Part shown: positions 1,401 through 60,514 of the stretch, one piece after another
Layout of the letters: each line of letters starts with the position of its first letter
Position numbering within the stretch: the stretch's first letter is position 1
Source: a virus
Reading direction: 5' to 3' (one strand)
IMG/VR virus record: IMGVR_UViG_3300031974_004051
Span: 1-64,000 of that record
Length of the DNA: 64,000 nt
Program-made: the position numbers and the translations under genes
Notes under the pieces: model-generated
Told to the model about the DNA's origin: nothing
Database searches by the model: none
Seen by the model: only the letters and a program-made list of their open reading frames with translations

Positions 1401-1878
1401 TCAACTTAAAAATAGGGTTTTTAAATTACCTGATGATGTTTTTAATTTTATACATAAAATTTTTACATCGTTAGAAGATAAAACTATAGTCGGTACTCAG
1501 AGAGCAAAAAATCTTCTAAGAACAAGAAATCTTAGTTACTCACAATTAAAGGCAATTATTCACGATTTAGAGAATGGTGACCCTAATTCAATTCAGTACA
1601 AATTATCAGGTGGTGAGTTGATGTTGAATTGGGCGAAAACCCATCTAAATGGTGAAAGACAAATGGTAAAAAATATTAAAAAATCGAAACAAAGGGCTAA
1701 TGAAATCGGACAACTGAATGATATAAGAAAAAACCCATTTCTTTCGAAACATAAGAAAAAGACGAATTACTCCATACCAAGAAATATGATGAAGTCTAAT
1801 TCAGATAAAACTTCAGTAACACCAATATCATCATTAGGTATTTTTGAAGAAGTTGAGAGAATAAAAGGATTATTATAA
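1393..1878 (+). CDS. Unknown phage protein, 161 aa
   Basis: The start ATG overlaps the preceding gene and is preceded by AGAAGGAG, one of the few Shine-Dalgarno-like sites in this window. The middle (LSYSQLKAIIHDLENGDP) looks helical; the C-terminal half is basic (KKSKQRANEIG, HKKKTNY). It ends in TAATG, which overlaps the next start, so it is translationally coupled. No family was recognised. Confidence 0.75.
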   Translation: MNSQLKNRVFKLPDDVFNFIHKIFTSLEDKTIVGTQRAKNLLRTRNLSYSQLKAIIHDLENGDPNSIQYKLSGGELMLNWAKTHLNGERQMVKNIKKSKQRANEIGQLNDIRKNPFLSKHKKKTNYSIPRNMMKSNSDKTSVTPISSLGIFEEVERIKGLL

Positions 1879-2822
1879 TGGCAAGTCAAATAGATAATAT
1901 ATCAGGTAAGTATCGAGAGGAAGCACTCGCAAGAAATAACTATCAAGGAAATAAACGATACGACTCGAACCATCCAAACGCTTTATCAGATGGGGATGAA
2001 TTAGGTAAAGGAGATAATAATGGTAGAATTGGTAGTAATAGTGATATAACTAATAGAAACGAATCTTTAGGAAGAAATAAATACGGACCTAATTTTGGGT
2101 ATGGGATAGAAAATCCGAATGCAATTTCAGATGGGGACGAGTTCGGTAGAGGTGAGAACAGAGGTCAGATAGGTACATTTACAGATATAAACCAAAGACA
2201 AGAACACATCAAGAGAAATACATACACATCAAGTGACTCATACAGTTCTAATCACCCAAATGCGATCTCTGATGGAGATGAATTAGGAAAAGGCGATAAC
2301 AATGGTAAAGTAGGTGGATTAACGGATAACCAAACGAGAATTGATAATATAAGTCGTAATTTTTATAACGACCAAAATGGTTATGGTGTAAATCACCGAA
2401 ATGCATTATCTGATGGAGATGATAAAGGGAAGGGTGAGAATAACCAAAATATTGGTTCACTAACAGATATCAATACAAGAACCGATCTTCTAACAAGAAA
2501 TCAATACAACAACGACCAAAATGGTTATGGTGTAAATCATCCAAATGCGATATCGGATGGGGATGAAAAAGGTAAAGGTGATAATAACGGTAAAGTAGGT
2601 GGGTTGACTGATGTTAACACTAGATTAGATAATAAAGCCAGAAATATCTACAACGATCAAAATGGTTATGGTCTAACACACCCTAACGCCATTTCTGATG
2701 GAGACGAGAAGGGACGAGCAGAAAATAATAATAAGATAGGTACACTAACCGATATAAAAGAAAGAACACAACATATAGGGAGAAACAACTATAATAGTTC
2801 AAATGGTTATCCTGATTTTTAA
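1878..2822 (+). CDS. Six-fold repeat protein, probable virion component
   Basis: 314 residues made almost wholly of six diverged repeats of about 47 residues. Each has the core N(H/E)PNA(I/L)SDGDE.GKG(D/E)NN, then a G..TDI..R segment and an aromatic RN.Y linker (for example YNDQNGYG). Asp/Asn/Gly-rich repeats of this kind could bind calcium or form a beta-solenoid, which is inference. It is coupled to both neighbours through TAATG overlaps and sits in a run of probable structural genes. Family not recognised. Confidence 0.8.
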   Translation: MASQIDNISGKYREEALARNNYQGNKRYDSNHPNALSDGDELGKGDNNGRIGSNSDITNRNESLGRNKYGPNFGYGIENPNAISDGDEFGRGENRGQIGTFTDINQRQEHIKRNTYTSSDSYSSNHPNAISDGDELGKGDNNGKVGGLTDNQTRIDNISRNFYNDQNGYGVNHRNALSDGDDKGKGENNQNIGSLTDINTRTDLLTRNQYNNDQNGYGVNHPNAISDGDEKGKGDNNGKVGGLTDVNTRLDNKARNIYNDQNGYGLTHPNAISDGDEKGRAENNNKIGTLTDIKERTQHIGRNNYNSSNGYPDF

Positions 2823-3511
2823 TGAAATTATTTAAGGACATATATAAATTTTTGATTGGAGAACAGTCGGAACCCAAACTACCAAGTAGACCACGGGCGA
2901 TCGCCAATGCAATTAAAAAGAGACACCCAATATCCTTTTTTTACAATGGTCCTCGAGGGGAGGTACAACCAGGTCGACGTATAAAAGCGGAGATGGTTGC
3001 ATTAGGTTTATCTAAAAAAGGTAAAATGATTGTGAGAGCATGGGTACAACCCCCATCAAGGTCTAAGACGGGTTTTGAAAAGAATAATTGGAGAACTTTC
3101 ATTCTTTCAAGAATGAGTCAAATAGAAATTTTTGATCAGGAAACATTCGACCAAAAAAGACCCGGATATAAAGAAGGTGATGATAACTCTATGACGGTAA
3201 CATATGTAACTTCAGATTGGTCCTCTACACCTGAACCCGAGGTTGAACCTCAACCACAACCCGAACCTGCAACTGAACCACAACCCGAACCTGCAACTGA
3301 CACACAACCTGAACCAGAATCTGAACCATCAGCTGAACCTCAATCAAATGAACTACCTCAACCTGAACCAGAAAATAGACCAAGTATTGAACCACCTAGA
3401 GTCGATAACGACCAAGCTAACGACCAAGATAACGACGAAGATGAAGAAGATAATAACTATGATGGTCTAAATGAAGATATTAAAAGAATAAAGAAATTAC
3501 TTTATAATTAA
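2822..3511 (+). CDS. WYL-like domain protein with acidic Pro/Glu tail
   Basis: 229 residues. Residues about 25-120 resemble a WYL domain: AIANAIKKRHPISFFYNGPR, an R-rich strand (GRRIKAEMVALGLSKKGK), VRAWVQPPS, then WRTFILSRMSQIEIFDQ and ETFDQKRPGYKEGDD. WYL domains usually sense ligands or nucleic acid in regulators. From about residue 138 the protein becomes PEPEVEPQPQPEPA-type low complexity, then an Asp/Glu-rich end. There is no helix-turn-helix, unlike typical WYL regulators. It lies among virion-like genes, so a structural or injected role is possible. Confidence 0.7.
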   Translation: MKLFKDIYKFLIGEQSEPKLPSRPRAIANAIKKRHPISFFYNGPRGEVQPGRRIKAEMVALGLSKKGKMIVRAWVQPPSRSKTGFEKNNWRTFILSRMSQIEIFDQETFDQKRPGYKEGDDNSMTVTYVTSDWSSTPEPEVEPQPQPEPATEPQPEPATDTQPEPESEPSAEPQSNELPQPEPENRPSIEPPRVDNDQANDQDNDEDEEDNNYDGLNEDIKRIKKLLYN

Positions 3512-3529
3512 TAATAATATACTTATATT
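3501..3529 (+). promoter_or_regulatory. Promoter with 17-nt spacer (TTTATA / TATATT)
   Basis: TTTATA at 3501-3506, 17 nt, then TATATT at 3524-3529, upstream of ATG 3548. The -35-like box overlaps the end of the preceding gene. AT-rich context lowers confidence. Confidence 0.4.
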
Positions 3530-3547
3530 TTATATAAATTAAAAAAT

Positions 3548-4138
3548 ATGTCAGATAAAAAAGGTACTATAAACGAAAACGATCTAATGCAGAGATTGGT
3601 GGGTGCAAAGAAAGTAATGAACGCCGTTGACGGTAAAACATATAAAACGGGTAATATCGACCCCACTGCATTAACACAATCTAACGATAAATTAGTTTCT
3701 CAAGTACCAACAACAAATCCAAACTTAAAGAAACCTGTTGGGTCTAACGTTGTCAATGAGGATAAAATAAGAAACTCTAAATTACCTGATTCAATCAAAG
3801 AGGCAATGATTAAAAACCCAATACCAACGATGGATGAAATATCGTTAAGTGATGGTTTAGATATGTCATTTGTTGAAGGTGCAAAAAAACTTATGGAAAG
3901 AGAAGGTCTGACAAAAAAACAACCTCAACAAACAATTCAACAACCCACACAAAACACTTCAGATTTGAAGTCCCTTATAAAAGAAACCATCAAAGATACT
4001 TTGGAGGAGATAGTGGATAGAAAATTAGAATTAATACTTACAGCTTCAAAAACTGCGTCTGTTAATGAAACATTAGTATTAAAAGTGGGTGATTCAATAT
4101 TCAAAGGTAAAATTACTGGCGTAAATAAAGCAAAATAA
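3548..4138 (+). CDS. Unknown, probable structural protein, 196 aa
   Basis: Starts at ATG 3548 after an A-rich leader, with no Shine-Dalgarno. Early residues (MSDKKGTINENDLMQRLVGA) are polar. The middle has a Gln-rich spacer (KKQPQQTIQQPTQN, about residues 121-135), then an acidic helix (IKETIKDTLEEIVDRKLELI) and a small beta-rich end (TLVLKVGDSIFKGKITGV). Oligomerisation helix plus beta end suggests a virion part, by inference only. A terminator hairpin covers its stop codon. Confidence 0.75.
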   Translation: MSDKKGTINENDLMQRLVGAKKVMNAVDGKTYKTGNIDPTALTQSNDKLVSQVPTTNPNLKKPVGSNVVNEDKIRNSKLPDSIKEAMIKNPIPTMDEISLSDGLDMSFVEGAKKLMEREGLTKKQPQQTIQQPTQNTSDLKSLIKETIKDTLEEIVDRKLELILTASKTASVNETLVLKVGDSIFKGKITGVNKAK

Positions 4139-4160
4139 GGATTGATTTCCTTATTTTATT
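4132..4160 (+). terminator. Rho-independent terminator
   Basis: 10-bp stem AAAATAAGGA (4132-4141), loop TTGATT, TCCTTATTTT (4148-4157), then a T-rich stretch. It overlaps the stop codon of the upstream gene and the -35-like box of the next promoter. Confidence 0.7.
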
Positions 4161-4170
4161 TTCTTATATT
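4142..4170 (+). promoter_or_regulatory. Promoter, TTGATT-N17-TATATT
   Basis: TTGATT at 4142-4147 and TATATT at 4165-4170 with exactly 17 nt between, 20 nt before ATG 4191. It starts the glycosyltransferase/dUTPase/PhoH run. The -35 sits in the loop of the terminator hairpin. Confidence 0.6.
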
Positions 4171-4190
4171 TTGATATATAGTTAGAATAT

Positions 4191-5423
4191 ATGTCAAAGA
4201 TTAAGATACTCGCAATACCATCAGATTCACATGGTGTTGGGAAATACAGAATTATTGATCCATACACTTTTATTGGAGATAAGTACTCAGATGAGGTGCA
4301 TGTTGATATTGTATTTGATGTACCTGATCAAGACGATTACTTCACAAAATACGACATTGTTGTATTCCATTCATTCATCCACAAAAATAGTCATGAACAA
4401 AATATTAAAAGGATTAAATGGTTAAAAACTAACGGTATTAAAGTCATCATGGATACGGATGACTTTTGGAGAGTTGACCAAAGACATCCAAACTATGAAA
4501 CTTTTCAAAGAGGTGAGTTGGCCAAAAAACGTGTAGAATTATTAAGGTTATCTGACCATATAACAACCACAACTCCCATATACGCTAACACAATTAAACA
4601 ACTGTTAGGTTTAAAGAATATTTCTATTTTCCCAAATGCGGTTAATGAGAATGAACCGCAATTTCAATCTAAACCAATAAAATCAGATAAAGTTAGATTT
4701 GGTTGGTTAGGTGGTTCTTCACATCTTCACGATATTGAACTCATGAAAAGTGGTATTTCTATGATTCAAAACCAATATAAAGATAAAACTCAATTTGTCT
4801 TGTGTGGTTTTGACTTAAGAGGAAATATGAGAGAGATTAATAAATTGACGGGTGAAGTCAACACCCGACCAATAAAACCTAATGAAACTGTTTGGTATAA
4901 GTATGAAAAAATATTTACTAACGACTATAAAAGTTTAGATCCAAATTATACTTCCTACCTCAACACATGGACTAAGAATCCATATGAAGGTGAATTCGAT
5001 CAACCATATGTGAGAAGATGGACGTTAGATATAAACAAATATGCATCAAATTACAACTATTTCGATATATCGTTAGCACCATTAGTAAAGAGTGAGTTTA
5101 ATAAAAATAAATCTCAGTTAAAGGTAATCGAAGCGGGTTTCCATAAGAAAGCGTTAATCGCAACTCAAGAAGACCCTTACACCATTGATCTTATTGATAG
5201 TTTCGACAGGGGAGTTTTTAAAGAGAATGGAAATGCTTTATTAGTGAAAACTTCAAAGAACCATAAACAATGGGCTCAACAAATGAAAAGATTAATTGAA
5301 AATCCGAATTTGATTGAAGACTTGGGTAATAAATTATATGAAACAGTAAAAGACAAATATTCCCTCTCTACTGTTTCTAAAAATAGAGTGGAATTATTTA
5401 AAACAATTATAAATAAAAATTAA
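4191..5423 (+). CDS. Glycosyltransferase, GT4-like (GT-B fold)
   Basis: 410 residues. The N-terminal half follows a GT-B donor/acceptor layout with VFHSFIHK and a central VIMDTDDFW segment. The C-terminal half has IFPNAVNEN and VRFGWLGGSSHLHDIELM, the linker strand typical of group 1 glycosyltransferases, and later the nucleotide-sugar region SLAPLVKSEFNKNKSQLKVIE with the family's Glu. It likely transfers a sugar onto a phage or cell-surface acceptor; donor and acceptor cannot be told. First gene after its own promoter. Confidence 0.85.
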   Translation: MSKIKILAIPSDSHGVGKYRIIDPYTFIGDKYSDEVHVDIVFDVPDQDDYFTKYDIVVFHSFIHKNSHEQNIKRIKWLKTNGIKVIMDTDDFWRVDQRHPNYETFQRGELAKKRVELLRLSDHITTTTPIYANTIKQLLGLKNISIFPNAVNENEPQFQSKPIKSDKVRFGWLGGSSHLHDIELMKSGISMIQNQYKDKTQFVLCGFDLRGNMREINKLTGEVNTRPIKPNETVWYKYEKIFTNDYKSLDPNYTSYLNTWTKNPYEGEFDQPYVRRWTLDINKYASNYNYFDISLAPLVKSEFNKNKSQLKVIEAGFHKKALIATQEDPYTIDLIDSFDRGVFKENGNALLVKTSKNHKQWAQQMKRLIENPNLIEDLGNKLYETVKDKYSLSTVSKNRVELFKTIINKN

Positions 5424-5427
5424 AATT

Positions 5428-5661
5428 ATGTATTATTTAGCAACCGTAGGTTATGAAACAGAACAATTGGACAGAAATGGTAATCCGAGAGTTCAAAAAG
5501 TTAAGTATGTCGTAGAAGCAGAATCTGTAGAAGAAGCGACAATTGTTTTGGCCAATTATAGAAAAGAAGATATGAGGTCAAGTGAAAGTATTTCTATCGC
5601 CAAAATGGCAATAGAATGTGTTATCGATTCAAAAATTACACCAGAATATTATAAAGGTTAA
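5428..5661 (+). CDS. Small protein resembling DUF4494 N-terminus
   Basis: 77 residues beginning MYYLATVGYETEQLDRNG, then KVKYVVEAESVEEATIVLA. The KY.VEA.SVEEA pattern is like DUF4494, a family I associate with Bacteroidota genomes; the length is shorter than the usual family member. Function unknown. It sits 4 nt after the glycosyltransferase and 2 nt before the HD-like gene. Confidence 0.65.
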   Translation: MYYLATVGYETEQLDRNGNPRVQKVKYVVEAESVEEATIVLANYRKEDMRSSESISIAKMAIECVIDSKITPEYYKG

Positions 5662-5663
5662 TT

Positions 5664-6224
5664 ATGTTAAATAAAGAACAAATAGAAAGAAATAAGAGTA
5701 AATTACTCGAAACATCGGAAAAATATGGGATACTAAATGAAGGTCTTTTAGAATATTTAGGTGAAGATCTTTTTACGTCCCCCGCATCCACATCTTTAGA
5801 TATGTACGGTGCATACCCCGGTGGTTTACTTGAACATATTTTTATCGCGTCAAAATACGCGGTCAAAGTCAATTCAATACTTCCCGAAAATTTACAACAA
5901 GACGTTTCAAGTATTTTAAAATGTACAATTCTTTCTCAAATAGGAAAAGTATTTCTATTTAAACCAAACGAAAGTGAATGGCACAGAACAAAACTCGGTA
6001 AGATGTATGAATTTAATGACGATTTAGTTTCAATGAGAGTTGGTGAAAGATCATCTTACTATTGTTCTAAATTTGGAGTCACACTTACAGAAGAAGAATA
6101 TCAAACAATTGTCAACTCTGATAAGGGCGATGACGATTTACAGTCCAAGTACCATTCAACACCATTAGCTCAAATTGTAAAACAAGGATTTGAATTAGCA
6201 ATATTTGAACAAAAACATGGATGA
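5664..6224 (+). CDS. Degenerate HD-type hydrolase-like protein
   Basis: 186 residues. GAYPGGLLEHIFIASKYAVK (about 49-68) resembles the first histidine region of HD phosphohydrolases, and HSTPLAQIVKQGFELA near the C-terminus resembles their last helix. Where the HD doublet is expected the protein reads CTILSQIGKVFLF, with Ser-Gln in place of His-Asp. It is therefore either catalytically inactive or uses other ligands. It overlaps dUTPase by 8 bp, which fits a nucleotide-pool context. Confidence 0.6.
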   Translation: MLNKEQIERNKSKLLETSEKYGILNEGLLEYLGEDLFTSPASTSLDMYGAYPGGLLEHIFIASKYAVKVNSILPENLQQDVSSILKCTILSQIGKVFLFKPNESEWHRTKLGKMYEFNDDLVSMRVGERSSYYCSKFGVTLTEEEYQTIVNSDKGDDDLQSKYHSTPLAQIVKQGFELAIFEQKHG

Positions 6225-6828
6225 AAAGATTCTAAGATCATATCTCGAAAAATTAGAGAATTTTGAGGAAGTTTTAGGTAACACAGATGAGGGTGAAGTC
6301 GATGATAAGTTTATACAAGACATTGAAAATACCTTATCTCAGTTAAGTAGTGATGTTGGTGCGCATGTAAATTCACAAAGTGACTTACAGGGTTTCGGTA
6401 TAAATGTAAAAATAAAACTTATTGATCCTGAAGCTAAATTACCATCATATTCAAAGGATGGTGATGGGTGTGTTGATCTTCATTGTATATCGTATGAAAT
6501 CAATGAACAAACTAATCAGATAACATACAAAACAGGAATTGCATTAGAAATACCACCAAACTACGTTGGATTGGTATTTCCAAGATCATCAATTAGAAGA
6601 ACACGACTTTCTTTAAGTAATAGTGTTGGAGTAATTGATAGTGGGTATAGAGGTGAAATAATCGCCACATTTAACATGACAAATTCAACTGATACAACGA
6701 TTTATGAAAAAGGTGAAAGAATATGTCAACTTATGATCCTACCATACCCAAAAATAAACTTTATCCCGACTGATGACTTATCAGACACCTCTCGTGGGAC
6801 TGGTGGTTTTGGGTCGACGGGTAAATAA
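6217..6828 (+). CDS. dut: dUTP diphosphatase (dUTPase)
   Basis: Hydrolyses dUTP to dUMP and pyrophosphate, keeping uracil out of DNA and feeding thymidylate synthesis. All five trimeric dUTPase motifs are present: DGCVDLHC, PRSSI, GVIDSGYRGEI, RICQLMI and the glycine-rich C-terminal RGTGGFGSTG. About 60 extra N-terminal residues precede the core, which is usually around 140 residues. ATG 6217 is preferred over TTG 6205 because it cuts the overlap with the previous gene to 8 bp. It works with the dCMP deaminase at 18.7-19.2 kb. Confidence 0.95.
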   Translation: MDEKILRSYLEKLENFEEVLGNTDEGEVDDKFIQDIENTLSQLSSDVGAHVNSQSDLQGFGINVKIKLIDPEAKLPSYSKDGDGCVDLHCISYEINEQTNQITYKTGIALEIPPNYVGLVFPRSSIRRTRLSLSNSVGVIDSGYRGEIIATFNMTNSTDTTIYEKGERICQLMILPYPKINFIPTDDLSDTSRGTGGFGSTGK

Positions 6829-21319: not shown

Positions 21320-22678
21320 TTATTTTAATTTTGACATCAAATCCTTCATTCTCTTGAATTGAGGACTTTCATACGCTTTTGTTTCTGAAAGTACTTCTTG
21401 AGATGAAGATGTTGTCGGGGTTGATGCGATCTTATCAACGACCGCTTCAGTAACATTTTTCTTAGAATCTAATTCACTCGCCATTGTTTTATAGGTTGAT
21501 TTAGATTCAGTTAAAGAAGTGACTGAGTCAAATCTTTTCAAAATGTTTAATTTCTCTTGACGAGTTGTTGAGTGTTCAGTGAACAATCTCGTAGCGTATG
21601 CTAAATTTGCATTGAATACAGCAACTTCATTAAGTTTGTCTTTAAATAACACCAACGCTTTCTTGTACTCTGCGTTTTGTTTCTTTAAAGTTTCAACTTC
21701 TTCGTTGATTGCACCCGCTTTGTATTTAGTCTTAGACTTAATACCAGCTCTGTTAGCTCCACCTTTGTCACCATGGACATTAGATTTTGTTCTAGCCGCT
21801 TCGTCAACCTCTTCCTCATGAGACTCTTCCTCTTCAGAGACTTCTTCTTCAGATACCTCTTCTTCGGAAACTTCTTCGGATACCTCTTCTTCAGAAACTT
21901 CTTCTTCTGAGACCTCTTCTTCTGAGACCTCTTCTTCAGATACTTCTTCTTCTGAGACTTCCTCCTCGGAAACTTCTTCTTCAGATACGTCGTCTAATTC
22001 GATTTCATATACAGTTTCATCACCTTCAGAAACTTCTTCTTCCATATCTTCTTCAGATACTTCTTCGTTAGTTTCTTCAGACACTTCTTCGTCGTAGCCA
22101 CCTTCGTGAGCTTCTTCGTCATGTCCTTCAGCGACTTCACCTTCTTCGTCATCTAATTTGATGATGTATTCGTCGTCTCCATCTTCGAGTTCAACGTTAT
22201 CACCGTCTCTCTTCACAACAATTCCGTCTTCTGGTTTCATTGATTTGAATACCTTAAGAACTTCGTCGTCAGATGCGTCGGTCATATCAAGGACATCCTC
22301 ATCATCCTCCATATCGTCTGCAGCTGGTAATTCTAAATCGTCTTCACCATCTATTGATAGTTCATCAGATTCTTCTTCACCACCTTCATCTTCTAAATCA
22401 GGATCTTCGTCGTCCGCTGGCTCGTCGTTTATCGAAGCTTCGTCATCATTTCCTTCCTCGTCATCAATTCCTTGTTCCGAGATTGGCATATCTTTTTCGT
22501 CTTCTGTAATAGGAGTTTCGTTACCCTCAACTACCTCTTCTTCCACTGTTTCTTTAAGCACTTCGTTTAGTTCTTCCTTCATAGTTGAAGCAAGTATACC
22601 TTTTGCGTTTGCTTTTACTGCCTCTTCAAGATCTTGTACTTGAAGCAATGCTTGTTCTAAAATGGATTTTTTGCTCAT
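21320..22678 (-). CDS. 22: Prohead core scaffold, T4 gp22-like, highly acidic
   Basis: 452 residues against about 270 in T4. The first 40 residues and the last 130 residues (coiled coil KKQNAEYKKALVLFKDKLNE, end RMKDLMSKLK) look like a gp22 core protein; between them lie about 250 residues dominated by Glu and Asp, with about ten tandem VSEEE units. The core scaffold directs gp23 assembly and is destroyed by gp21 in T4. Identity rests on position between gp21 and gp23 and on composition. Confidence 0.8.
   Translation of the reverse strand: MSKKSILEQALLQVQDLEEAVKANAKGILASTMKEELNEVLKETVEEEVVEGNETPITEDEKDMPISEQGIDDEEGNDDEASINDEPADDEDPDLEDEGGEEESDELSIDGEDDLELPAADDMEDDEDVLDMTDASDDEVLKVFKSMKPEDGIVVKRDGDNVELEDGDDEYIIKLDDEEGEVAEGHDEEAHEGGYDEEVSEETNEEVSEEDMEEEVSEGDETVYEIELDDVSEEEVSEEEVSEEEVSEEEVSEEEVSEEEVSEEEVSEEVSEEEVSEEEVSEEEESHEEEVDEAARTKSNVHGDKGGANRAGIKSKTKYKAGAINEEVETLKKQNAEYKKALVLFKDKLNEVAVFNANLAYATRLFTEHSTTRQEKLNILKRFDSVTSLTESKSTYKTMASELDSKKNVTEAVVDKIASTPTTSSSQEVLSETKAYESPQFKRMKDLMSKLK
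21825..21995. repeat. 15-bp tandem repeat encoding VSEEE units
   Basis: Successive 15-nt units with silent variation (GAA/GAG, TCT/TCC) encode VSEEE; one unit is shortened to VSEE. Variation at wobble positions suggests selection on the peptide. Confidence 0.75.
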
Positions 22679-24014: not shown

Positions 24015-24206
24015 ATGTTAATAGTAAAAGTAGATAAGGGTGGTGTTGAAAAAGCGATAAAAAAATTACGTTCTAAAGTAAGGAACACCAAACAAATAAA
24101 ACAGTTAAGGGAACGACAGGAATTTACTAAACCCTCAGTCAAGAAAAGATTAAAGAAACAAAAGGCTATTTACATTCAAAAACTAAGGGATTTAGAAGAC
24201 AAATAA
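24015..24206 (+). CDS. rpsU: Phage-encoded 30S ribosomal protein bS21
   Basis: 63 residues, the normal bS21 length. MLIVKVDKGGVEKAIKKLRS, then KVRNTKQIKQLRERQEFTKP and SVKKRLKKQKA follow the bS21 pattern (V..G..E.A...LK.K, L..L..R....KPS.KR..K). bS21 sits at the 30S platform near the anti-Shine-Dalgarno end of 16S rRNA. The gene has its own promoter and terminator, no Shine-Dalgarno in the leader, and runs against the flanking head genes. Phage bS21 genes are known from aquatic phages; this one looks Bacteroidota-like. Confidence 0.9.
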   Translation: MLIVKVDKGGVEKAIKKLRSKVRNTKQIKQLRERQEFTKPSVKKRLKKQKAIYIQKLRDLEDK

Positions 24207-33220: not shown

Positions 33221-33592
33221 TTAACCAATTGAAATGGTTCGTTGTGAGTTCTTCTTTTTTGTTTTTGGAATGGATATTTTTAATATACCATTTTGAACCT
33301 TTGCCGATATTTTCTTATCGTTCACATCTTCAGGTAAAGTGTAAGTCCTCTCGAATGAATCAATAAAAGTTTTCTCGTTATCGGATTTGGTGTAGGTGAT
33401 CTTTAGTAAGTCCTCCTCAACAATAATGTTAATATCATTTTTGGTAAGACCTGGTACAATGAAATCTAAAGTATATTCATTCTCATCTTGTTTTTTGTAC
33501 ACATTAACATAACCACTCTGTGTCTTATCTGTTCTTGAATCAAAGAACTCATCCACAAACTTTACAAATGGATCATTTCTAAATAAAATCAT
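33221..33592 (-). CDS. hsp20: Small heat-shock protein (Hsp20 / alpha-crystallin)
   Basis: 123 residues. The alpha-crystallin core reads YTLDFIVPGLTKNDINIIVE and FERTYTLPEDVNDKKISAKV, then QNGILKISIPK; the C-terminal IxI anchor is ISI in RTISIG. ATP-independent holdase. Hsp20 genes are common in marine T4-like phages. Here it is divergent from a ClpC-like unfoldase across a palindrome-rich control region. Confidence 0.95.
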   Translation of the reverse strand: MILFRNDPFVKFVDEFFDSRTDKTQSGYVNVYKKQDENEYTLDFIVPGLTKNDINIIVEEDLLKITYTKSDNEKTFIDSFERTYTLPEDVNDKKISAKVQNGILKISIPKTKKKNSQRTISIG

Positions 33593-33753: not shown

Positions 33754-35769
33754 ATGTCTGTAGAATTTTTTGAGGAGGGTACCCAACCCCAAAGTAAGAG
33801 AGGAAAGAAGGGGAGTAAAACTCCTGTTCTTGATAATTTTTCGAGAGATCTCACAACTATCGCGGCTGAAGGTGGTATCGACCCGATTATCGGAAGGGAT
33901 AAAGAAGTACTTCGAATTGCCCAAATTTTATCGAGAAAGAAGAAGAACAATGTCGTTATTGTTGGTGATGCGGGTGTTGGTAAATCGGCGTTAGTTGAAA
34001 AACTCGCCTTGTTAATTAGTGAAGGAAATTGTCCAACTAATTTACTTGATAAAAGAATTATGTCATTGGACTTGACATCCTTAGTTGCGGGTACCAAATA
34101 CAGAGGTCAGTTTGAGGAAAGGATTAAAGTTATTTTAAACGAATTACAAGACGCACCGAATGTGATAATTTTCATAGATGAGATTCATACTATGGTAGGT
34201 GCAGGAAATGCGTCTGGTTCTATGGACGCTGCGAATATATTAAAACCCGCCCTTGCAAGAGGTGAGATACAATGTATTGGGGCAACAACTTTTGATGAAT
34301 ACAAAAAGAATATTGAGAAAGATGCTGCACTTGTAAGAAGATTCCAAAAGATTATTCTACAAGAACCAACAATATCAGAAACTAAAGACATCTTAAAAAA
34401 TTTAAAAGAATCTTATGAAGATTTTCACAGAGTAGAATACAAAGAAGATGTAATTGAAACTATTGTGAACCTTTCTAAAAAGTATATTACAGATAAACAA
34501 TTTCCCGATAAAGCGATCGATATATTGGATGAGTTAGGTTCTGAGAAAAAGATCAACGTTAAAATTCCTGATATTATTGAAAAACTAAGAAAGGAATCTG
34601 AAAACGTCAAAGTTAGAAAGTTAGAGGTTGTAAAAACTCAAGACTATGAGAAGGCGGCGCAACTTAGAGACGAAGAAAGAAAAATTCTAAAAAAGTTAGA
34701 TAACGAAAAAGGTAAGTGGAATCAGGAACAAAAGGAAAATAAAAAACCTGTATATGTTGATGATGTGTATAACATGATAACAAACATGACGGGTGTTCCC
34801 ATAAACAAATTAGATACAAAAGAGACAAAATCTTTACTATCGTTAGAGAAAACCATATCTAAAAACGTGATCGGTCAAGATGAGGCAGTTTCAATCATCT
34901 CTAAATCTATAAGAAGAAATAGAGTTGGTGTTAGAGGTGTAAACAAACCAATTGGATCTTTTATGTTTTTAGGTTCTACGGGGGTTGGTAAAACACACTT
35001 AGCAAAGACTTTGGCTAATACTCTATTTGGTGATCCTGAAAAAATAATTAGGGTGGACATGAGTGAGTTTATGGAGAAACATAATGTATCCAAACTTATT
35101 GGATCCCCACCAGGATATGTTGGGTATGATGAAGGGGGACAACTCACCGAAAAAATAAAAAATAACCCATTCTCAGTAGTGTTATTCGATGAAGTTGAGA
35201 AGGCACATAAGGACGTGTTTAATATATTACTCCAAATTCTTGATGAGGGTCATCTAACAGATTCCTTTGGTAGAAAAGTAAATTTTACGAATACACTGAT
35301 TATCATGACATCCAATGTCGGAGCGAAAAAAGTTTCAGATTTTGGTGCGGGTGTTGGGTTCACTGATGGAACTAATAGAGATAAAGTAAAGGATTCTATT
35401 ATACAGAAGGCATTAAAACAACAGTTCTCACCTGAATTCTTAAATCGAATTGATGATATTATAGTCTTTAATAAATTAGATAAGAAGTCACTTAAAAAAA
35501 TCGTAAGTATAGAATTATCAAAACTAAACGATCGACTAAAAGATAGTGGTTATAAGATTACTTTCGATAATACAATCGTAAATGAAATATTAGAGAAGAA
35601 CTCTGAAGAAGATTATGGTGCAAGACCAATAAAAAGAATAATTCAGAATTTGTGTGAAGATTTTATCAGTGATAGTATTTTAACTGGAGATATAAACGAA
35701 GAAAGTGACGTTATATTAAAAATAAATGAGGGAAAAATGGAAATTTCCAAAAATATTCCCCTCATTTAA
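33754..35769 (+). CDS. clpC: ClpC-like AAA+ protein unfoldase without N-domain
   Basis: 671 residues, two AAA+ modules. First Walker A GDAGVGKS at 71-78, Walker B FIDEIH at 140-145; a short UVR-type middle motif ([19 protein letters not shown], about 297-315), which points to ClpC rather than ClpB; second Walker A GSTGVGKT at 407-414 and [11 protein letters not shown] at 475-485. The ClpP-docking loop tripeptide VGF is kept at 534-536. The usual N-terminal Clp_N repeats (about 145 residues) are missing. It may feed selected substrates to host ClpP. Confidence 0.93.
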
Positions 35770-40579: not shown

Positions 40580-40966
40580 GGGGGTGACTTGGAATTGATT
40601 GGCGTAGTCAATTATAGCAGGGCACGTAGTGAGATATTTCCTATCACTTAAATCTATGGAGATAATTTTTAAACGGAAACGTTTATTCACAGATGGAATT
40701 AATGGGTCTTGTATCTGTTGATTCTAAAGTAGCGGTAGCCTAAGGAAACCTCTACAACGGGTCGGGACATATAACCTAGGAACAGAAGTCTTACAAAGGT
40801 GGAGAAACGACTGAATCGGAAATCGAGTCGTACATCTATTGGTGATGGAGGATGTAAAAATTCAATCACATATTTCGGAATATTGAGAATCGATATTGTC
40901 CTAAACGTGTAGTCCTTTATGGTTGGGACGAGCAAGACGAGGGTTCGAAACCCTCCACCTCCACCA
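40580..40966 (+). ncRNA. ssrA: tmRNA (transfer-messenger RNA)
   Basis: 387 nt. The 5' GGGGGTG pairs with CACCTCC near the 3' end (one G-U) to form the acceptor stem; T arm GAGGGTTCGAAACCCTC; CCA is encoded at 40964-40966. The best tag frame runs 40675-40743: GNVYSQME at the start, SKVAVA then TAA at the end, 22 residues, preceded by TTTTTAAAC. It would rescue stalled ribosomes and tag products for proteolysis. The tag is longer than usual for Bacteroidota and ends AVA rather than LAA; the resume codon is my inference. Confidence 0.88.
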
Positions 40967-46398: not shown

Positions 46399-46767
46399 AT
46401 GAAAGTACATCCTTATGTATATGTTGGGTTGAATAGTCAAACTCAAGCAACATTTAAAAAGAGTAAACATAATAATATCAATCCCAATACTGTACTTAAA
46501 ATTGTGTCTCAAAAAACAGGTGTCACAGTAAATGAAATACTGTCAAAATCAAGAGTGAGAGAAATATCTGATGCGAGACAGATGTTTTGTTATATAATGA
46601 GGGAAAAGTATGGTATGAGATACTCTAAAATAGGTAAGATAATCGGTAGAGATCACGCAACAGCAATTCACTCTTGTAGATCACATAAAGACAAATGTGA
46701 TGTACTAAGAGAATATAGGGAATTAACTAAAGTAACGTGTGAACTCGTTAGAGAGTCTGAGTTCTAA
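46399..46767 (+). CDS. Stand-alone DnaA domain IV-like DNA-binding protein
   Basis: 122 residues. NTVLKIVSQKTGVTVNEILS, then REISDARQMFCYIMREKYGM, RYSKIGKIIGRDHATAIHSC follow DnaA domain IV, including the DHATAIHS version of the DnaA signature that reads DnaA boxes. There is no AAA+ module. It could bind phage or host origins, or act as a repressor or titrator of DnaA boxes. Shares a transcript with a lipoprotein. Confidence 0.85.
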   Translation: MKVHPYVYVGLNSQTQATFKKSKHNNINPNTVLKIVSQKTGVTVNEILSKSRVREISDARQMFCYIMREKYGMRYSKIGKIIGRDHATAIHSCRSHKDKCDVLREYRELTKVTCELVRESEF

Positions 46768-57945: not shown

Positions 57946-58089
57946 ATGTCAGTATTTGGTATGTCAGATGAGGAAAAGAAGAAAATCCTCGAAAAACACA
58001 AGACAGCAACAAAAAATCATTATACAAAACAAAATGATTTAAAAAAGGGTATTCAGGTACCTGAAAAAAAAGAGAAACCCTCAGAGTAA
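57946..58089 (+). CDS. Small Lys-rich protein, 47 aa
   Basis: MSVFGMSDEEKKKILEKHKT, then ATKNHYTKQNDLKKGIQVPE and KKEKPSE. The EEKKKILEKHK helix recurs in short phage proteins. It follows its neighbour by 7 nt, and its stop codon lies in the loop of the following terminator, so it looks real despite its size. Confidence 0.65.
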   Translation: MSVFGMSDEEKKKILEKHKTATKNHYTKQNDLKKGIQVPEKKEKPSE

Positions 58090-58103
58090 GAGGGTTTTTT
58101 TTA
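58075..58103. terminator. Bidirectional terminator at a gene-end overlap
   Basis: AAACCCTC (58075-58082) / GAGGGTTT (58090-58097) followed by T8; on the other side an A-rich tract serves the glycan operon. It lies inside the coding ends of both converging genes. Confidence 0.8.
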
Positions 58104-59172
58104 TGAATGTAAGTGCGGATTCAATAACATCGTCCATATCATAATATTTATATTCCGCCAACCTACCACCGAAATAAACATCCTTTTCTTTATCTGCCAA
58201 TTCTTTATACTTGTTGTATATTTCAGTATTTTCATCATCATTGACTGGATAATATGGTTCTGTTTCTTTTGCATTGTAGTCAATCGGAAATTCCCATGTT
58301 ACCCAAGTGGAATCTGATTCCACATTCTCAAAGTGTTTATGTTCTATAGTTCGTGTAAATGGAATTTCTTTATCGGTATAATTCATCATTACTACACCTT
58401 GGTAGTTATCAGTATCTATTTTTTTATGTTCAAATCGTGTTGTTTTATATTCTAACTCACCAAACTTATAATCAAAATATCTATCGATTGGACCTGTGTA
58501 AATAACTTTATTGTGATTTGGTAAATTGGAACCAAAATAATCAGTGTCTAATCTCACATCAATACCATCTAATAATTTTTCAAAGATTTGGGTGTACCCC
58601 CCAATTGGAATCCCTTGGTACTTATCATTGAAATAATTGTTATCATAAGTAAATCTTACAGGTAATCTTTTTATAATTTCTTTAGGTAAGTCCTTCGCAT
58701 CTTTTCTCCATTGTTTTTCTGTATATCCTTTGATTAGTTTTTCATATACGTCCGTACCAACAAGTTTGATTGCCTGTTCTTCTAAATTTTTTGGATTATC
58801 TATATGAGAACTTTGTTCTTCTATAATTTCTTTTACTTGTTGTGGATGTGACACACCCCACAACTTTGAGAATGTCCACATATTAAAAGGTAAGGAATAG
58901 ACCTCACCCCTGTAGTTAGCAACCGGTCTTAAAGTAAAATTATTAAATTCGACATATTGATTTATCCATTTCCAAACTTCTTCGTTCGATGTGTGAAAGA
59001 TATGGGGACCGTAATCATGTACATTAATACCATCTCTGTTAGAAGTATAACAATTACCACCAATATGATTTCTGTTTTCAATTACACAAACTTTCTTACC
59101 ACTATCTGTAAGTTCTCTTGCACATATTGAACCAAAAAATCCACTACCAACTATTAAGTAGTCATAAATCAT
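58081..59172 (-). CDS. glf: UDP-galactopyranose mutase
   Basis: 363 residues from ATG 59172 (ATG 59181 is also possible). Flavoenzyme that interconverts UDP-galactopyranose and UDP-galactofuranose. FAD-binding YLIVGSGFFGSICARELTDS, then VCVIENRNHIGGNCYT, DGINVHDYGPHIFHTSNEEV, the GYTEKQW motif and IPIGGYTQIFEKLL are all family landmarks, and YKYYDMDDVIESAL is near the C-terminus. Last gene of a five-gene glycan operon, so the glycan likely contains galactofuranose. Confidence 0.95.
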   Translation of the reverse strand: MIYDYLIVGSGFFGSICARELTDSGKKVCVIENRNHIGGNCYTSNRDGINVHDYGPHIFHTSNEEVWKWINQYVEFNNFTLRPVANYRGEVYSLPFNMWTFSKLWGVSHPQQVKEIIEEQSSHIDNPKNLEEQAIKLVGTDVYEKLIKGYTEKQWRKDAKDLPKEIIKRLPVRFTYDNNYFNDKYQGIPIGGYTQIFEKLLDGIDVRLDTDYFGSNLPNHNKVIYTGPIDRYFDYKFGELEYKTTRFEHKKIDTDNYQGVVMMNYTDKEIPFTRTIEHKHFENVESDSTWVTWEFPIDYNAKETEPYYPVNDDENTEIYNKYKELADKEKDVYFGGRLAEYKYYDMDDVIESALTFIKKTLLL

Positions 59173-60514
59173 AGATCCCATAAATTTGGAAAAGACATTT
59201 TTCAAAATCTAAACACGCATGAGGGTAGACCCCCACACTAACTAATGAATGTATTTTTTGGTAGAACTCAATCGGATGTTTCTTTATTAACCTTCTACTG
59301 ATGATGTGTTGTGCCCCAGGTACATTGTAGGATGGGAAACTAATACTAATACCCATAGTTTCACCAAAAGATCTCATTTCATTATCAATACCCTCATACT
59401 CCATATTATATCTACTTATATTCCCCAATGGTAAAAATTCTTGTTTAAAATCAAATTTATTTATTTGATCAACCACATTATGACAATGGTCAAAGGGGTT
59501 TCCTTGTACAAATGCCATGTAATTAGGTAAATTATCGTAGTTATCTATAATATATGTGAGAAATGTATGTGTTTCTCTCCCCACATTTGGTAGGTTGTGT
59601 TCAAAATGATCACTATCAGATTCATTTTTATTATACACTATATGATCGTGTTTTAAGTATGCTGTCCAACTTATATCCTCATTGTATTTCGCAACAATGA
59701 CTTTTAAATTTTTGTCACTCGTAAATAAATCGATGTATTCTCTCCACCCACATTGAATCAAATTGTATTTCTCAGGATCTCTAAGGTATAGAAAATCAAA
59801 CATCTTTTCGTCACTACCTACGTATCCGTTATTGATCGACTGATTAACAACATCTTCAAATTCCACACAAACTTTTTCTACACAACTTTTAGGTACAAAT
59901 ACAGAACCCCCCTGTATGTACCTCATTTGAGATAATGCGTGTTGTTCGTAATATTCCTCACCAACCCTAACATAGGGATGGTGACAAAAGAAAGTTACTT
60001 TCTTATTATCTAATTCATTAATTTTTTGAGTATCTGGCCAACTGATACCTAATTCAGGTTTATCATTTCTGAGTACACCCGCGTCTGCCCATACAAATAA
60101 ATCAGTATTAAATAGATTTCTTTTATGTGCATCTAAAATGTAATATAATTTGGAAAACATAACCACATTGTAAAGTGGTTTAGTCATCTCAGGGACTTGG
60201 AATTGAATCTTTGATTTGAATTCTTCGCTCGACATTAGAGTATTAAGAGGGTTGAAGAATTTTTTATATCCTAAAATATTCTCTAAAGGTTCAATCACAA
60301 TAATTGTCTTCTCTAAATCGGGGTCAACTTCTTTTCTAAATTCAATAATTTGTTTTTTGAATTTATCTTCGGTATAGATAACCATGTTAGTATCTAAAAA
60401 CAATATGTTCCTCATCCACATAAGATAAGTGTGGTAAGACATAGTGAAATTATCCCAATTATCTCTACCAATATCAAATATTGCCGTTACAATTGTTGTG
60501 TTTTTTATATCCAT
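59162..60514 (-). CDS. HtrL/WlaTC-like glycosyltransferase fused to a DUF3431-like domain
   Basis: 450 residues from ATG 60514. The N-terminal 280 residues (TTIVTAIFDIGRDNWDNFTM, SKLYYILDAHKRNLFNTDLF, VWADAGVLRN, ... GSVFVPKSC) resemble HtrL/YibB/WlaTC sugar-transfer proteins. The last 150 residues (THTFLTYIIDNYDNLPNYMA, FVQGNPFDHCHN) match DUF3431, another glycan-linked domain. The fusion could couple two steps. Overlaps glf by 11 bp. Confidence 0.75.
   Translation of the reverse strand: MDIKNTTIVTAIFDIGRDNWDNFTMSYHTYLMWMRNILFLDTNMVIYTEDKFKKQIIEFRKEVDPDLEKTIIVIEPLENILGYKKFFNPLNTLMSSEEFKSKIQFQVPEMTKPLYNVVMFSKLYYILDAHKRNLFNTDLFVWADAGVLRNDKPELGISWPDTQKINELDNKKVTFFCHHPYVRVGEEYYEQHALSQMRYIQGGSVFVPKSCVEKVCVEFEDVVNQSINNGYVGSDEKMFDFLYLRDPEKYNLIQCGWREYIDLFTSDKNLKVIVAKYNEDISWTAYLKHDHIVYNKNESDSDHFEHNLPNVGRETHTFLTYIIDNYDNLPNYMAFVQGNPFDHCHNVVDQINKFDFKQEFLPLGNISRYNMEYEGIDNEMRSFGETMGISISFPSYNVPGAQHIISRRLIKKHPIEFYQKIHSLVSVGVYPHACLDFEKCLFQIYGIYDL

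Follow-up and report, generated by a model that had tools for sequence, protein, structure and literature searches.

Phages are commonly seen as borrowing the Clp proteases of their hosts or adjusting them. In bacterial ClpC, the N-terminal domain has a fixed length and is highly conserved (PMC10149685). Mutating the ClpP-docking loop motif of Staphylococcus aureus ClpC abolishes ClpP binding, and R443 in its M-domain holds the resting state; deletion of the N-domain combined with R443A made ClpC autonomous, and the resulting deltaN-ClpC-R443A reportedly degrades GFP-SsrA with no need of MecA (PMC12521514). In S. aureus ClpP, a relay comprising M31, G33, N42, Y63 and N65 runs from the docking pocket to the gate (PMC9035409). 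Phage Clp ATPases and ClpP are themselves already known from annotation (PMC9723584, PMC12619734, PMC7824862, PMC6102473), including ClpP in jumbo phages (PMC7824862) and seven Clp-like proteins in Agrobacterium phage Atu_ph07 (PMC6102473). The bS21-encoding Bacteroidetes phages (PMC9723584) and the moraphages (PMC12619734) are large phages with Hsp20 and a Clp ATPase near the head genes, and the former also carry bS21 and Clp protease genes there. In the portions of these two sources covered here the genes are listed, but N-domain loss, Clp-ClpP pairing and an altered ClpP gate go unmentioned. More generally, the accessible portions of the literature on phage-encoded ClpC and ClpP hold annotation-level reports, among which we found no description of a conserved N-domain-less architecture, of co-inheritance with ClpP or of an altered ClpP relay. 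The conserved pair of an N-domain-less unfoldase and an altered-gate ClpP looks undescribed.

The window, that is, the whole stretch of 64,000 nucleotides analyzed here, is part of a 65,990-bp IMG/VR phage fragment (G000) with a T4-like portal, terminase, prohead protease and major head protein. Translation of the ORF at 33754-35769 (plus strand) yields a 671-aa protein of the two-ring Hsp100 class, ClpC type, without the N-domain. Its features are the following.

33754..35769 (stop included), plus strand: N-domain-less ClpC-type AAA+ unfoldase (ORF, Pfam, PDB match, AlphaFold/Foldseek)
33754..33825, plus strand: residues 1-24, an acidic/aromatic start and a variable basic linker replacing the N-domain (column entropy, model disorder)
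33964..33987, plus strand: D1 Walker A, GDAGVGKS, aa 71-78 (alignment)
34570..34737, plus strand: M-domain coiled coil of ClpC length, about aa 273-328, including R305 (alignment, model helices)
34972..34995, plus strand: D2 Walker A, GSTGVGKT, aa 407-414 (alignment)
35353..35361, plus strand: VGF ClpP-docking tripeptide, aa 534-536 (translation, alignment, model loop)

As judged by alignment, Walker A and B motifs, sensors, arginine fingers and both aromatic pore loops are intact in this protein and in its clade. AAA, AAA_lid_9, AAA_2 and ClpB_D2-small are among the Pfam matches listed, and a UVR motif match falls in the M-domain region. The best solved relative in a phmmer search of the PDB was S. 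aureus ClpC, whose residues 152-792 align with residues 15-653 of the phage protein (E 1.6e-214). In the AlphaFold model (pLDDT 81, pTM 0.60), helices at 273-294 and 298-328 make up the M-domain, and ClpC-ClpP complexes were the top Foldseek matches of the model. Its confidence is low at loop 532-538 and over the first 19 residues, as would be expected of a flexible docking loop and a flexible tail.

The likeness to bacterial ClpC (S. aureus, B. subtilis and Bacteroidota) covers a D1-D2 core about 47-54% identical, a short M-domain with a UVR-like motif, the pore loops and the [VILM]GF loop after the TSN-G motif; the phage protein differs in lacking the N-domain, in forming a phage branch of its own and in having a partner ClpP that is phage-encoded in relatives. 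A ClpB identity was rejected, given a score of 782 bits under the cut-off of 1232 of the NCBIfam ClpB model, the short M-domain and the presence of the ClpP loop; ClpB likewise has two AAA+ rings, but its M-domain is long and the ClpP loop was found in none of 13 sequences. ClpA was rejected as well, the NCBIfam equivalog giving 714 bits under its cut-off of 993 and an M-domain being present. We file the gene as a putative ClpC-derived unfoldase that would resemble ClpC in its working, yet without the N-domain expected of a ClpC. The first-pass annotation, which had called the product a ClpC-like unfoldase, was right in this respect, as seen from the M-domain of ClpC length, the full set of ATPase, pore and arginine-finger motifs and the position on the ClpC side of the tree.

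The same annotation had also described the N-domain as missing, and this holds throughout the family. An in-frame TAA lies two codons 5' of the ATG, with one codon between, so that no N-domain is concealed behind a missed upstream start, and Clp_N was not among the best 25 of the 28 Pfam matches. The domain is absent in 170/170 phage homologues drawn from two sets: the window, 80 IMG/VR relatives (72-86% identity, with an in-frame stop no more than 36 codons 5' of the start), nine loci reached through ClpP contigs, and 80 sequences of a second group, collected by a further scan that took the Clp of a 484-kb phage as its query, all of them N-domain-less with the loop and two of them cut at a contig end. 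Many matches in the phage collection bear an N-domain and are apparently bacterial ClpC misfiled as phage, an example being L317, an unannotated human-faecal scaffold; these were left out of the counts. Ahead of the position of residue 25, phage Clps have 24-25 residues and 30 Bacteroidia ClpCs have 180-211; in 80/80 bacterial relatives on genome contigs, at least 114 residues precede the match. A misassembly, or a bacterial clpC that had strayed into a viral bin, was rejected in view of the 170 phage homologues and the adjoining head genes.

In place of the N-domain, the window protein starts with MSVEFFEEG, and the clade consensus is MSVDFFEE, usually followed by G. Column entropy over 90 sequences was 0.54 for residues 1-8 versus 1.26 for residues 9-24, which are variable and basic, with 0.43-0.64 in the ATPase core. 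Second-group starts are different, short and acidic (MNDLMDDDD, MIESVDPNE, MIEFIDDND), and the second-group Clp of L408, 670 aa long, has the usual short N-terminal tail. The conserved nine-residue start may serve as a docking peptide.

In the tree, the window clade and 20 of the 27 second-group rows form a phage clade (SH-aLRT 99) beside Bacteroidota ClpC and away from ClpB. That the gene is a nonfunctional piece of host clpC, either decayed or newly acquired, as a missing N-domain might imply, is vanishingly improbable and is refuted by conservation: the frame is intact, all motifs and a conserved N-terminal peptide are present, and 170 homologues accompany a long conserved phage branch. The N-domain-less Clps of L318 and L319, from phages of 635-642 kb, fall instead among Bacteroidota ClpCs (supports 80-100), and their N-domain was probably lost independently. 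ClpS normally requires the N-domain; the records L318, L319 and L321 (LR756502, LR745206 and LR756504; 635-642 kb) each encode an N-domain-less Clp, two or three ClpP-family matches and a ClpS. The 735-kb phage L322 (LR756501) has a Clp with an N-domain and without a recognizable GF loop, in a record without ClpP, and is thus the reverse of the N-domain-less Clp plus ClpP combination.

MecA and McsB are adaptors of Firmicutes. The hosts of this group of large phages are probably Bacteroidota, as inferred from the described bS21 phages (PMC9723584), the nearest cellular ClpC and ClpP, and the terminase match (28% for the window terminase against a Flavobacterium phage). ClpS was found in 50 of 60 Bacteroidia genomes and in none of the 23 phage records from the two groups, so that, without the N-domain, the phage enzyme is probably no longer coupled to host ClpS. 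Binding of ClpS, and not of the MecA or McsB proposed at first pass, is accordingly what probably went with the domain. The counterpart of S. aureus R443, R305, is conserved in 170/170 phage homologues. The phage Clp shares with the engineered deltaN-ClpC-R443A the absence of the N-domain, but it keeps this arginine and corresponds to the deltaN change only. Given that autonomy in S. aureus came with both changes, some resting-state control may remain, and loss of the N-domain alone may not make the enzyme constitutively active.

Residues 534-536 read VGF and, as aligned by MAFFT with 110 bacterial Hsp100s, sit in the segment after the D2 TSNVGA motif, which is the ClpC loop position. A hydrophobic-Gly-Phe tripeptide follows TSNVGA in 90/90 phage sequences of the window clade and 89/97 ClpCs, against 0/13 ClpBs, and the [VILM]GF loop is retained in all 170 phage homologues (90/90 in the window clade, 80/80 in the second group). 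The initial proposal that VGF marks the place where ClpC docks ClpP is thereby upheld: the tripeptide aligns within the docking loop, 13/13 ClpBs lack it, and no homologue does (0/170). The phage pattern, FGxG[VI]GF, resembles the FGxG[VIM]GF of 29/30 Bacteroidia ClpC loops, so the loop alone does not tell which ClpP is the partner.

This resemblance bears on the reading in which host proteolysis is redirected by an unfoldase that docks host ClpP in competition with the host's ClpC and ClpX, whether or not a phage ClpP takes part. Host ClpP would be available, as a phage query found ClpP in 57/60 Bacteroidia genomes, and an adaptor-like protein of SPO1 is reported, in the accessible part of the source, to modulate host ClpCP (PMC6873191). 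However, all 13 relatives in which it could be observed have their own ClpP, the unfoldase has no evident need of host ClpP, and the pocket and gate residues of the phage ClpP have diverged from those of the host. We regard this reading as unlikely, if still a serious contender. The first-pass annotation had favored it; a loop like that of Bacteroidia ClpC keeps the partnership with host ClpP plausible, but neither this partnership nor the redirection of host proteolysis is the leading reading, as relatives encode a ClpP of their own wherever their contigs reach its place.

The evidence for a phage-encoded partner comes from these relatives, as clpP was not found in the 66-kb fragment to which the window belongs. 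PF00574 ClpP was present in 5 of the 20 records first tested, exactly those of at least 170 kb, and a search of ClpP-bearing contigs for Clp gave eight further contigs with both genes. In the 13/13 contigs with both, the genes lie 105.6-129.3 kb apart on opposite strands, where one spacing spans the join of a presumed circle and some positions are locus midpoints; within the window clade, Clp and ClpP are thus far apart and do not form one operon. Every contig with only one partner ends short of the expected place of the other. The nearest case is L189, at 108.7 kb, whose ClpP groups by similarity with phages of 123.8-kb spacing. True absence of ClpP from the short relatives was rejected on this geometry. 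The closest relative with both genes is G004, whose Clp is 79% identical to that of the window. ClpP contigs also come from the same metagenome samples as L003, L006 and L008, which are among the nearest relatives of the window; this fits a single genome, though it is not proof of one. Of the long records of the second N-domain-less group, 14/19 have ClpP; L339, L347 and L415 (about 2930-6810) show Clp, an ORF that we take from the look of its sequence to be ThyA-like (thymidylate-synthase-like), an ORF of about 103 aa and ClpP in a row on one strand, with 1.2 kb between Clp and ClpP. Because of this co-occurrence in long-contig relatives and in the second group, we take the likely partner of the unfoldase to be the ClpP of the phage itself, ahead of host ClpP.

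The ClpPs of the relatives match PF00574 (E about 1e-57) and solved ClpPs (E 9e-53). S128, H153, D198 and D202 are invariant in 84/84 phage sequences, with the Ser-His-Asp triad kept, and the N-terminal axial loop segment TPYILEER is conserved across the 84. In a tree of 20 phage rows and 30 Bacteroidia ClpPs, the phage proteins make up one side of a fully supported branch. Among the 114 core columns that are invariant in the Bacteroidia ClpPs, 32 hold a different, likewise invariant residue in the phage ClpPs. With the S. aureus numbering presumably placed correctly on the alignment, all five relay columns are among the 32: from Bacteroidia to phage, M31 changes from F to W, G33 from G to A, N42 from N to T, Y63 from Y to H and N65 from N to D. 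The hypergeometric P of 0.0014 for this overlap was computed post hoc on sequences of a single shared ancestry and is descriptive only. The W/A/T/H/D signature is common to 12 second-group ClpPs. Eight ClpPs of unrelated phages differ in lacking it and have Tyr (seven) or Lys (one) at the place of Y63. Since Y63A renders SaClpP constitutively active, an altered gate in the phage ClpP is a testable idea and not a result. Several other phage Clps differ in keeping the N-domain.

A tmRNA gene lies 4.8 kb 3' of the Clp gene.

40580..40966, plus strand: tmRNA with tag VDSKVAVA (ARAGORN; Rfam RF00023, 72.7 bits)

The tag is identical in L002, L003, L011 and L023, and nearly all Bacteroidia tmRNA tags end in [YF]A[LM]AA. 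SmpB was not found in the window or in G004; it was found in four other clade members. It is possible that the tmRNA is a source of tagged substrates for the unfoldase, a link that we infer. ARAGORN calls of tmRNAs with odd tags near the second-group Clps of L408 and L418 may be false positives. A wider proposal, speculative and rather unlikely as a whole, is an adaptor-free ClpCP-like protease orthogonal to that of the host: it would combine the N-domain-less unfoldase with a ClpP that its W/A/T/H/D relay leaves partly pre-activated or tuned to that unfoldase and, for the subclade of the window, with a tmRNA tag that lacks the host's -[LM]AA ending and would either feed the phage machine or spare products from the host's.

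Two further genes belong to the setting of the Clp gene.

33221..33592, minus strand: Hsp20 small heat-shock protein, divergent neighbor of Clp (Pfam HSP20, 7e-20)
24015-24206, plus strand: ribosomal protein S21 (bS21), within the head-gene block and on the opposite strand to it, an arrangement shared with bS21 phages already described (PMC9723584)

Hsp20 lies within 1.5 kb of Clp, divergent and in the same orientation, in 51/78 relatives, and is a possible functional partner; the terminase lies 4-7 kb from Clp in the same orientation in 76/80. The S21 gene puts the window near the bS21 phages, in which Hsp20 and Clp protease genes occur near bS21, and bS21 and the structural genes are highly expressed late, according to the part of that report covered here (PMC9723584). 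From this neighborhood and expression, a role of the Clp in late proteostasis is, by analogy, a reasonable guess. Elsewhere in the window, an acidic protein with long EEVSEEEVSEEE repeats (21320-22678, minus strand) adjoins the major head protein, a 314-aa protein (1878-2822, plus strand) has about six repeats around NHPNAISDGDEKGKGDNNG, a small ORF (46399-46767, plus strand) matches only the C-terminal DNA-binding domain of DnaA (E 1e-20), and a UDP-galactopyranose mutase domain protein (58081-59205, minus strand) stands beside several glycosyltransferase-like ORFs.

The positions of Hsp20 and terminase would also suit a Clp whose main task, shared with Hsp20, is to use ATP to disaggregate virion proteins or chaperone their assembly, with ClpP docking in second place. 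Hsp100 disaggregases that naturally lack the N-domain exist, namely ClpL, which likewise has two AAA+ rings. However, disaggregases of the ClpB type have a long M-domain and no loop, the phage loop has not been lost in a single homologue, and ClpP is co-inherited. As the loop is retained in 170/170 phage sequences versus 0/13 ClpBs, a pure disaggregase is not expected, and we hold this account to be quite improbable.

The gene is probably the unfoldase half of a phage-owned, two-part ClpCP-like protease. Six copies of the Clp would assemble into a ClpC-type double ring, and their VGF loops would dock it on a ClpP tetradecamer that the phage itself encodes, in a part of its genome outside the contig. 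The ATP-driven ring would unfold substrates and thread them into ClpP. Loss of the N-domain would remove the platform for host adaptors such as ClpS, so that the enzyme would neither compete for host adaptor traffic nor be controlled by it, and substrates would be taken directly at the D1 pore or by phage-specific signals. Its location in the head-gene block, by Hsp20 and near bS21, suggests late proteostasis or remodeling in virion production.

Judging from these sequences, the phages probably come with a protein shredder of their own, complete in both parts, and do more than borrow that of the host. If true, a large group of aquatic phages would own a ClpCP-like system, and controlled protein destruction would be part of the phage programme. 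The natural loss of the N-domain together with an altered ClpP gate would also amount to a ready-made experiment on the coupling of adaptors, docking loops and gating in Clp proteases, for which work to date has relied on engineered mutants, among them deltaN-ClpC-R443A and ClpP Y63A.
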